34,374 nt of DNA. Source: Gammaproteobacteria bacterium (GTDB lineage: Bacteria; Pseudomonadota; Gammaproteobacteria; JAJPIJ01). The notes beneath the pieces were generated by a model. That model was given only the letters and a program-made list of their open reading frames with translations, was not told where the DNA came from and made no database searches. A program made the position numbers and the translations under genes. This document shows positions 26,213-29,342 of the stretch, piece by piece. How positions within the stretch are numbered: the first letter of the stretch is position 1; every line of letters begins with the position of its first letter. The stretch lies in the NCBI GenBank assembly GCA_021324815.1, contig JAJPIJ010000041.1:1-34374 (forward strand). The letters are read 5' to 3'.

Positions 26213-27307
26213 ATGACTCCCTTAGAACGCTATCGGCAGGATTTGCTTCGCAACGGCTTCACCGATGACCCTGTTCAGCGGCGGGTGATCGGACACCTGG
26301 AACAGTTGTATCAATCCCTGTGCGCGCCGCCGGCGGCGCCCCGCCACCGCTGGTGGCACGGTCTCCTGGGGAACACACCGGCTCCGGCCCTGATTTCCGG
26401 ACTTTACCTCTGGGGCGGCGTGGGCAGGGGCAAGACCCATCTGGTCGATCTTTTCCATGACTGCCTGCCGTTCAGGGAGAAGACACGCCTTCATTTCCAC
26501 AGCTTTATGCACCGCATCCACCGCGAGCTGAAATCGCTGAAGAAAATCCACCATCCCCTGCGGCACGTCGCCCGCGGCCTGGCGCGGGAAGCCCGCGTCC
26601 TGTGCCTGGATGAGTTTCACGTCGCCGACATCACCGACGCCATGCTGCTGGGCAACCTGCTGCGGGCCCTGTTCGACCAGGGCGTGACACTGGTGGCGAC
26701 GTCGAACGAAGCGCCCGACCTTTTGTACTGGGGGGGCTTGCAGCGGGAGCGTTTTCTGCCCGCCATCCGTCTCATCAAGACGCACACCCGGGTGGTGCAC
26801 ATGGACAACGACACCGACTACCGCCTGCGGGCGCTGGAGCAGGCGGAGATTTATCACGCGCCGCTGGACGCGGCGGCGGAGGAGAGTCTCCGGCGTGGTT
26901 TTGACAGCGTCGCGCCGGAAGCGGGCGCGGCCGGCGGCGCGGTGGAAATCGAGGGTCGCATGATCCCCACGGTGCTCCATGCCGACGGCGTGGCCTGGTT
27001 TGAATTCGAGGCGCTGTGCGGCGGGCCGCGCTCGGCTGCGGATTACATCGAGATCGCCCGCTGCTTCCAGACCGTCCTGCTCGCCAATGTGCCGCGGATG
27101 GACGACCGTCACAACGACGCGGCGCGCCGCTTCATCCATCTGGTGGATGAGTTCTATGACCATGGCGTCAAGCTGATCATCTCGGCCGCCGCGCAGCCCG
27201 AAACGCTCTACACGGGCGAACGTCTCACAAAGCTGTTCGAGCGCACGAAGAGCCGGCTGGTGGAGATGCAATCCAAGGAATATCTCACCCGCGAGCACTT
27301 ATCATAG
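26213..27307 (+). CDS. zapE: Cell division protein ZapE (AFG1-like ATPase)
   Basis: ZapE is an ATPase that acts on the Z-ring during constriction in E. coli. The 364-residue protein has Walker A GGVGRGKT (68-75) and Walker B LCLDEFHV (D133, E134), and it starts MTPLERYRQDLLRNGF as in the family. HFHSFMHRIHRELKSL and NEAPDLLYWGGLQRERFLPA are the AFG1-type segments. The length is typical. A putative small RNA gene begins about 64 bases after the stop, so the 3' end is tightly bounded. No terminator for zapE itself is seen. Confidence 0.95.
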   Translation: MTPLERYRQDLLRNGFTDDPVQRRVIGHLEQLYQSLCAPPAAPRHRWWHGLLGNTPAPALISGLYLWGGVGRGKTHLVDLFHDCLPFREKTRLHFHSFMHRIHRELKSLKKIHHPLRHVARGLAREARVLCLDEFHVADITDAMLLGNLLRALFDQGVTLVATSNEAPDLLYWGGLQRERFLPAIRLIKTHTRVVHMDNDTDYRLRALEQAEIYHAPLDAAAEESLRRGFDSVAPEAGAAGGAVEIEGRMIPTVLHADGVAWFEFEALCGGPRSAADYIEIARCFQTVLLANVPRMDDRHNDAARRFIHLVDEFYDHGVKLIISAAAQPETLYTGERLTKLFERTKSRLVEMQSKEYLTREHLS

Positions 27308-27310
27308 ATT

Positions 27311-27365
27311 TATAAATCAATTAGTTATAATTGTTACTTGACAAAATATTTAAGTAAGCTATGCT
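27311..27365 (+). promoter_or_regulatory. Strong sigma-70 promoter with AT-rich upstream element
   Basis: A perfect -35 box TTGACA (27338-27343) and TATGCT (27360-27365) are separated by 16 bases. The 27 bases before the -35 are almost entirely A and T, as in an UP element. This predicts a start near 27372 and drives the putative RNA at 27372-27549, with no ORF downstream until 27666. Confidence 0.75.
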
Positions 27366-27371
27366 ACTTCA

Positions 27372-27549
27372 TAAGCTTGCGAAGATTTCTGATTGAGGGG
27401 CATTACCGTTGAGGTTACCCCTGTGGCACGGGATCCGCACCACAATGCGGATTCTCGACAACCGGTTCTCCGTGGGCACCTAATGACAGGACCTCCTCGT
27501 AGCCTGTCACCAGGAGTTGGGGCTGCACCTTGCAGCCCCTTCTTTTTCT
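27372..27549 (+). ncRNA. Putative structured small RNA, about 178 nt, family unknown
   Basis: The segment lies between a strong promoter and an intrinsic terminator. I recognise no known family. Stem-loops that can be drawn by eye are: GGGG...CCCC with an ACC/GGT inner part (27397-27421), ATCCGCA/TGCGGAT with a CCACAA loop (27433-27452), and TGACAGG/CCTGTCA (27484-27509) whose 12-base loop shows CCTCCT, an anti-Shine-Dalgarno motif. The terminator hairpin closes the molecule. AGGAG at 27512-27516 could pair with the CCTCCT loop. Two short ORFs (12 and 22 codons) lack ribosome binding sites. It may be a trans-acting regulator of the downstream sulfite reductase or of other mRNAs. It does not look like 6S, SRP or RNase P RNA. 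Confidence 0.65.
27519..27549 (+). terminator. Rho-independent terminator of the putative small RNA
   Basis: A 9 bp GC-rich stem (GGGGCTGCA/TGCAGCCCC) with loop CCT is followed by TTCTTTTTCT. The downstream sulfite reductase gene has its own -10 box after this, so the terminator probably ends a separate transcript. Confidence 0.85.
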
Positions 27550-27574: not shown

Positions 27575-27618
27575 TTCATGGCATATCGATAGAGCCATTA
27601 AGTCCTTTTAACTATAAT
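27575..27618 (+). promoter_or_regulatory. Predicted promoter of the sulfite reductase operon with an overlapping inverted repeat
   Basis: A perfect TATAAT is at 27613-27618, with no good -35 box. Just upstream an interrupted inverted repeat, TT-n-ATGGC (27575-27582) and GCCAT-n-AA (27594-27601), with 11 bases between, overlaps the -35 position. That layout suits activator-dependent transcription; the activator is unknown (CysB is a guess only). Confidence 0.55.
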
Positions 27619-27665: not shown

Positions 27666-29342
27666 ATGTATCGTTACGACCATTACGATCAGATCATCGT
27701 CAACGAGCGTGTCGCGCAATTCCGCGATCAGACGCGGCGTTATCTCGCCAAGGAACTGACCGACGACGAGTTCCGGCCGCTGCGCCTGCGCAACGGCCTC
27801 TACATCCAGCGCTTCGCGCCGATGCTGCGCATCGCCATACCCTACGGCCTGCTGAATTCGAAGCAGTTGCGCATGCTGGCCTACATCGGCCGGCGCTATG
27901 ACAGGGGCTTTGGCCATTTCACCACCCGCCAGAACATCCAGTTCAACTGGCCGAAGCTCGAGACCGTGCCGGACATCCTGGCGCACCTGGCCAGCGTGCA
28001 GATGCACGACATCCAGACCTCCGGCAACTGCGTGCGCAACATCACCGCCGACCATCTGGCAGGCGTGGCCGCCGACGAGCTGGAGGATCCGCGTCCCTAT
28101 GCCGAAATCGCGCGCCAGTGGTCCACGTTCCATCCCGAATTCTCCTGGCTGCCGCGCAAGTTCAAGATCGCCTTCAGCGGCGCCACCGAGGATCGCGCCG
28201 CCGTGCAATGGCACGACATCGGCCTGTATCTGGTCAAAAACGCCGCCGGCGAAATCGGCTTCAAGGTGCTGGTCGGCGGCGGCATGGGCCGCACGCCCAT
28301 CATCGGCGTCGTGATCAGGGAATTCCTGGAGAAGAAGTACCTGTTGTCTTATCTCGAGGCCATCCTGCGCATCTACAACCTCGAGGGCCGCCGCGACAAC
28401 ATCCACAAGGCGCGCATCAAGATCCTGGTGCGGGCGCTGGGGACGGAGAAATTCCGCGCCCGCGTGGAGGAGGAATTTGCCCGCATCAAGGACAACGTGA
28501 TCCTGGATCAAAAGGAGATCGACCGCGTGAAGGCCTTCTTCGCGCCGCCCGCCTACGATCCCACGGCGTCGCAGGACCAGAGTTTCGATCAACATCGGAA
28601 CGGCAATCCGCTGTTCAACACCTGGGTCAAACGCAACACCCGCGCGCACAAGGTGGCCGGCTATCGCGTCGTTTTTCTGTCGCTGAAGGCGCCGACGGTC
28701 GCGCCCGGCGATGTCACTTCGGATCAAATGGACGCCATCGCCGATCTGGCCGATCGCTACAACTTCGGCGAGATCCGCGCCACGCACGATCAGAACCTGC
28801 TGTTCTCCGACGTGCGCCAGGGCGATCTCTACGCCCTGTGGAAGGAATTGCAGAAGCTCAATCTGGCCACGCCCAACATCGGCACGCTGACCGACATGAT
28901 CTGCTGCCCGGGGCTCGACTTTTGCTCGCTGGCCAACGCCAGCTCGATCTCGATCGCCAAGCAGATCAACGAGAAATTCACCGACCTCGATTACCTCTAC
29001 GATCTGGGCGAGATCCAGTTAAAGATGTCCGGCTGCATGAACGCCTGCGGCCATCATCACGCCGGCCACATCGGCATTCTGGGCGTGGACAAGAGCGGCC
29101 AGGAATATTACCAGCTCACGCTGGGCGGTTCGCCCGGCAACGACGCCGCGCTGGGTGATCGGCTGGGGCCGTCGGTGGCCAAGGCCGAGGTCGCGAACGT
29201 CATCGGCAGGCTCATCGACGTGTTCGTGGAGAATCGCGAGGGCGAGGAACGCTTCATTGACTGCTACCGCCGCATCGGCATGGCGCCCTTCAAGATGCGC
29301 GTGTACGGCGGCAACGTCGAGGAAGAAAAGGAAGCCGCCTGA
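27666..29342 (+). CDS. cysI: Siroheme- and 4Fe-4S-containing sulfite reductase (nitrite/sulfite reductase family), CysI type
   Basis: The 558-residue hemoprotein reduces sulfite to sulfide in assimilation, with six electrons. The cluster and siroheme ligands are visible as C414-x5-C420 (CCPGLDFC) and C457-x3-C461 (GCMNACGHHHAGHIG). RPLRLRNGLYIQRFAPMLRI and GFGHFTTRQNIQF carry the conserved siroheme carboxylate-binding arginines. It resembles Pseudomonas CysI (PA1838 type), which uses a different electron donor from the enteric CysJI enzyme. I chose ATG at 27666; ATG at 27648 adds six residues. Its stop overlaps the next ATG (TGATG). The enzyme could be a nitrite reductase, but the DUF934 partner favours sulfite. 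Confidence 0.92.
   Translation: MYRYDHYDQIIVNERVAQFRDQTRRYLAKELTDDEFRPLRLRNGLYIQRFAPMLRIAIPYGLLNSKQLRMLAYIGRRYDRGFGHFTTRQNIQFNWPKLETVPDILAHLASVQMHDIQTSGNCVRNITADHLAGVAADELEDPRPYAEIARQWSTFHPEFSWLPRKFKIAFSGATEDRAAVQWHDIGLYLVKNAAGEIGFKVLVGGGMGRTPIIGVVIREFLEKKYLLSYLEAILRIYNLEGRRDNIHKARIKILVRALGTEKFRARVEEEFARIKDNVILDQKEIDRVKAFFAPPAYDPTASQDQSFDQHRNGNPLFNTWVKRNTRAHKVAGYRVVFLSLKAPTVAPGDVTSDQMDAIADLADRYNFGEIRATHDQNLLFSDVRQGDLYALWKELQKLNLATPNIGTLTDMICCPGLDFCSLANASSISIAKQINEKFTDLDYLYDLGEIQLKMSGCMNACGHHHAGHIGILGVDKSGQEYYQLTLGGSPGNDAALGDRLGPSVAKAEVANVIGRLIDVFVENREGEERFIDCYRRIGMAPFKMRVYGGNVEEEKEAA

Follow-up and report, generated by a model that had tools for sequence, protein, structure and literature searches.

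The nearest precedent for the locus described here is the SgrS RNA of Yersinia, which persists without sgrT (PMC4021124). The hairpin and terminator of SgrS matter for its binding to Hfq, and the conserved region that pairs is located 5' of the terminator (PMC4021124). Two further points of comparison are the 3'-UTR-derived RNAs SdhX, NarS and FarS, which occupy the 3' end of an mRNA from at or near its stop codon to its terminator, and the Vibrio MalH/MicX locus, whose RNA arises by processing in one species but from its own promoter in another (PMC9438474).

The subject of this study is a 34,374-nucleotide stretch of the genome of an uncultured gammaproteobacterium (hereafter the window), in which a promoter, a hairpin and a terminator lie between the unrelated genes zapE and cysI. 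We put the probability at roughly 0.6 that positions 27338-27549 are a free-standing sRNA gene, derived from a zapE-downstream unit whose 3' UTR doubles as a regulatory RNA and which lost its ORF in the genus of the window. The unit resembles SgrS/SgrT in having its own promoter, a small ORF on the 5' side and a short conserved region, hairpin and terminator on the 3' side, and in that the ORF is lost in some lineages while the RNA stays (PMC4021124). The sequences are unrelated, however, and the locus follows zapE while SgrS lies next to sgrR; moreover, the ORF of the relatives has 60-85 codons against about 40 for SgrT and is missing in several separate lineages. The module shares with SdhX, NarS and FarS its place at an mRNA 3' end, but the window is without the parent ORF and the promoter drives the predicted RNA directly. 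As in MalH/MicX, a single locus has a (predicted) processed form in the relatives and a (predicted) promoter-driven form in the window; unlike MalH/MicX, the ORF has been lost, the promoter is ancestral, and sequence and locus differ. Given the SgrS and MalH/MicX precedents the kind is already known, and it is the family that would be new and the repeated ORF loss that is notable. A literature search for an sRNA at zapE/cysI found none.

Layout of the zapE-cysI interval

The features of the interval are listed below; G000 is the genome of the window, G001 the congener used for all pairwise identities, and G002 and G003 belong to the sister genus.

26213-27307, + strand: zapE-like ATPase gene (ORF; homologues 5' of the module in nearly all loci)
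27311-27337, + strand: AT-rich stretch 5' of the -35 box (A/T-rich consensus common to 26 loci)
27338-27365, + strand: sigma-70-type promoter, TTGACA-N16-TATGCT (spacing and hexamers alike in relatives with and without the ORF)
27372-27462, + strand: fast-changing 5' part of the predicted transcript (41/88 identities to G001; site of the ORF in G002 and G003)
27463-27483, + strand: conserved box with CTCCGTGGG at 27468-27476, a candidate seed (21/21 identities to G001)
27484-27509, + strand: hairpin 1, TGACAGG-ACCTCCTCGTAG-CCTGTCA (26/26 identities to G001; covariation)
27519-27549, + strand: intrinsic terminator with T-tract (sequence, conservation in G001, covariation)
27613-27618, + strand: TATAAT of a separate cysI promoter, outside the RNA (sequence; flanks conserved in G001)
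27666-29342, + strand: cysI-like sulfite reductase gene (ORF; downstream neighbour here, not in many relatives)

A preliminary description of this DNA had proposed a TTGACA/TATGCT promoter behind an AT-rich stretch and a terminator ending a 178-nt interval, and both are where it placed them. The -35 hexamer (27338-27343) and the -10 hexamer (27360-27365) are separated by 16 nt and match the consensus at 10 of 12 positions, while the terminator stem (27519-27539) is followed by TTCTTTTTCT; the predicted transcript spans 27372-27549 (178 nt) and its conserved 3' module 27463-27549 (~87 nt). Neither signal exceeds chance by itself, with one promoter-like site observed against 0.4 expected and one terminator-like site against 1.1, so that comparison with other genomes was needed to decide; it is their conservation in relatives that makes the two significant. 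The interval folds better than 200 of 200 shuffled versions (z -3.86). Its longest reading frame has 52 codons, in keeping with the earlier judgement that it holds no credible ORF, and the claim that it resembles no known RNA family holds as well: a search of the window against Rfam 15 returned nothing at gathering score, and no gathering-threshold match falls on the module in the window or in seven relatives, SgrS included. The matches BSnc119, RefA5 and mir-4529, obtained at a relaxed E-value, are at chance level. 6S RNA was considered for its length and shape and rejected, as the 6S gene of this genome (RF00013) sits at G000:C35:56216-56402. The hairpin occurs once per genome, which disposes of a multi-copy element.

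Conservation within the genus

The congener has the same layout of zapE, promoter, hairpin, terminator and cysI, and conservation along the unit is uneven. The 3' module is identical at 85 of 87 positions (98%), against 41 of 88 (47%) over 27372-27462 (Fisher p = 1.6e-15) and 230 of 364 (63%) at third codon positions of zapE (p = 6e-13); box, hairpin 1 and linker, the part 5' of the terminator, agree at 56 of 56. For comparison, zapE is 81% identical overall and the promoter region 78%. Judged from these identities, strong selection within the unit acts on the 3' module only. The preliminary description had taken the whole interval as the feature; the 3' ~87 nt are conserved, but the larger fold over 27372-27462 is not, the elaborate structure of the 5' half being absent from G001, and we therefore leave it out of the feature. 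Past the terminator, toward cysI, identity is again 92% and 86%, and this stretch is probably the cysI promoter. It contains an inverted repeat, ATGGC-N11-GCCAT (27578-27598), between the terminator and the cysI TATAAT, which is possibly a regulator site of cysI.

Distribution across Gammaproteobacteria

A covariance model (R1) built from four members of the window's family was searched against 369 genomes of the class, and found zapE-adjacent modules in G215, G315, G094, G073 and G202 and, weakly, in G123. Between them, the covariance models recover the module on the 3' side of zapE in the sister genus as well as in three other gammaproteobacterial families. Homologues of the kind that the preliminary description had proposed to look for, with promoter and module, do exist in these relatives. 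A second model (R2) found the module in 24 of 36 genomes of the order of G215; the R2 score of G123, itself one of the seeds, is not independent, and the E-values of the covariance searches are rough throughout. Past that order, in samples of the class and phylum, R2 found little, its other matches lying near 1e-5 and looking like plain terminators. Most weaker matches of the first class-wide search, and the matches of the wider searches, were likewise set aside as ordinary terminators without box, hairpin 1 or zapE. Most of the genomes compared are draft assemblies.

The zapE-like gene is the constant upstream neighbour of the promoter-module unit in the compared loci, and the genes on the 3' side differ, being cysI, an EF-G-like gene or others, some of them on the opposite strand; the unit is thus tied to zapE rather than to cysI. 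Behind an A/T-rich element, the promoter departs little from TTGACA-N16-TAnnCT, and its TTGA does not vary across 26 loci. Such uniformity is unusual (27311-27365 in the window, and relatives) and hints at a shared regulator or high expression.

The small ORF of the relatives

G002 and G003, of the sister genus, have a 70-codon ORF flanked by the same promoter and module, and in most relatives an ORF of 60-85 codons (YGDGxVYLP...GYxTRKGR) lies between the TTGACA-N16-TAnnCT promoter and the module. Nearly every locus in the order of G215 carries an ORF of this family whose end reaches the module or falls just within it. On the evidence of these arrangements, the module of ORF-bearing relatives is the 3' UTR of a small-protein gene, from which it follows that the free-standing form is derived, by ORF loss. 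This amends the preliminary description, which had judged a free-standing RNA likely; its rejection of a leader is supported. A search of G000 and G001 for the ORF gave no match, and no relocation elsewhere in the genome was found. In some families the zapE-associated ORF is present without a recognisable module; as the module also occurs without the ORF, the two separate in both directions.

The products make up a small protein family (60-85 aa, YGDGxVYLP...GYxTRKGRxLLA), encoded after zapE in many Gammaproteobacteria, at L008:2097-2312 and about 30 further loci. Comparison with Pfam, NCBIfam and PDB gave no convincing match; the predicted structure (pLDDT 84) has a vague likeness to winged-helix regulators (MarR/MntR, TM about 0.57, not significant). 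At loci L053 and L057 (G073 and G202), which belong to one family, the ORF has diverged strongly, no longer has the YGDG motif and extends into the module.

Apparently repeated loss of the ORF

The ORF is missing, with promoter and module kept, in G000/G001, G094, G123 and G387. Five relatives with the same genus code as G094 retain it. In G387 the module lies at another locus, not adjacent to zapE, with a TTGACA box shortly 5' of it. This is also the shortest form (L110:1334-1463), with only a few tens of bases between TTGACA and module and an EF-G-like gene downstream. In a ZapE tree the ORF-less rows (G000 with G001, G094, G123) fall in three separate places, which would imply at least three independent losses, though absence of the ORF from single draft genomes could partly reflect assembly, and G387 is only 62% complete. 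At locus L117 (G394) the small ORF looks frameshifted and the module is intact, a case of either a decaying ORF or an assembly error. We lean, by a little over even odds, towards a previously undescribed gammaproteobacterial sRNA family, a 3'-UTR RNA that has been freed repeatedly, with at least three and perhaps four lineages dropping the ORF and keeping promoter and module.

Compensatory changes in the two helices

As to the covarying base pairs that the preliminary description proposed to look for, both helices show compensatory changes. Across 30 distinct sequences 93.6% of cells pair and 8 of 16 pairs are changed on both sides, values that none of 500 shuffles reaches; with related sequences and an alignment fitted to the model, these figures back the hairpins but fall short of a formal test of covariation. 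Hairpin 1 has two-sided changes in five of its seven pairs, with variants such as GACAGG/CCTGTC, GACGGG/CCCGTC, GACCGG/CCGGTC and GACGTT/AATGTC. Its 12-nt loop, ACCTCCTCGTAG (27491-27502), is invariant in the window's family and variable outside it. Of the conserved box, GTGGG is kept in most relatives.

Proposed function and alternatives

The ancestral unit 3' of zapE would have comprised a promoter, a small-protein ORF and a 3' UTR with hairpin and terminator, and this 3' UTR may have doubled as a regulatory RNA, as it presumably still does in most relatives in a 3'-UTR-derived or dual-function form. Once the ORF was lost in the genus of the window, the stretch separating promoter and module would be free to drift, and a primary sRNA of about 178 nt would have the module as its 3' portion. 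The protein is gone while promoter and tail are kept, and so the tail probably works alone as a regulatory RNA. Most likely the ~87-nt module is a trans-acting sRNA that binds Hfq and pairs with mRNAs through the parts left unpaired, namely the CTCCGTGGG box, the linker and, in the window's family, the ACCTCCTCGTAG loop, probably masking their ribosome binding sites. The combination of box, hairpin, U-tract terminator and hfq matches the anatomy of Hfq-dependent sRNAs such as SgrS, and the module is probably Hfq-dependent as well: hfq is present in all seven genomes checked, and an intrinsic terminator with U-tract together with hfq in the genome is what a trans-acting sRNA of this class should have. 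The position expected of a 3'-UTR-derived sRNA, 3' of an ORF and sharing its terminator, is found in most relatives and not in the window.

By sequence, the best seed candidates would be the CTCCGTGGG box and, in the window's family, the CCTCCT loop; in the window's full-length fold most of the box is paired, which makes the loop the more accessible of the two there. sRNAs with C-rich, anti-Shine-Dalgarno-like loops exist, and in the window's family alone an exposed CCUCCU could in the same way base-pair with ribosome binding sites; unlike those RNAs, this one has no Rfam match, a loop that is not conserved outside the family and a single copy per genome. The CCTCCT that had been noticed in the hairpin loop is indeed there (27492-27497) and is predicted to be mostly unpaired (mean 0.78). 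As the general functional element it is not supported, since it is invariant only in the window's family and other, mostly short, loops replace it elsewhere. Nor was the suggested pairing with ribosome binding sites borne out: searching for complements of the loop turned up no target at a start site, the near-complete complements examined lying inside longer coding frames.

The sRNA reading has its difficulties. Families differ in which unpaired sequence is most conserved, the ORF stop codon of some relatives overlaps part of the CTCCGTGGGTGA box, and a conserved 3' UTR could serve termination and mRNA stability only. A rival view sees leftover punctuation: with the ORF lost, the terminator would shield the downstream gene from zapE and from the old promoter, and the hairpin would do no more than stabilise the 3' end. 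No part is better conserved across all families than the terminator, and zapE transcripts could otherwise run into cysI; yet a mere insulator needs no promoter, and the promoter is kept in the ORF-less loci, nor does insulation sit well with the 56 identical positions 5' of the terminator or the covariation of hairpin 1. On balance we regard it as unlikely. We give still less credence to a module that acts on a protein, for instance one that binds or titrates an RNA-binding protein, or an old cis element of the mRNA retained as a decoy: conserved boxes, a loop variable outside the window's family and the lack of a pairing target in the loop-complement search would all suit protein recognition, but no known recognition motif was identified and the 12-nt loop is invariant within that family.

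It is highly improbable that the element is a cis-acting leader or attenuator of cysI or another downstream gene. The cysI gene does follow after 116 nt on the same strand, and a terminator closes the unit, but cysI has a separate promoter-like box after that terminator, the window and seven relatives give no Rfam riboswitch match, and linkage to the downstream gene is not conserved, that gene being variable and sometimes on the opposite strand while zapE is constant, which largely refutes the idea. A very small peptide gene in place of an RNA is hardly credible, because the frames of 24-52 codons in the interval either cross hairpin and terminator or sit in the middle part, where the congener has unrelated sequence.

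Significance

The origin of stand-alone sRNA genes is still argued mostly from single cases. For an RNA that belongs to no Rfam family, this work provides a covariance model, and the related genomes present a series that runs from promoter, ORF and module, through a module after a decayed-looking ORF (G394), to promoter and module without an ORF. Together with several apparently independent losses, the series makes the idea that a 3' UTR can turn into a free-standing sRNA testable within one family. If the proposal is true, these bacteria would hold a natural series from an mRNA tail to an independent sRNA gene.
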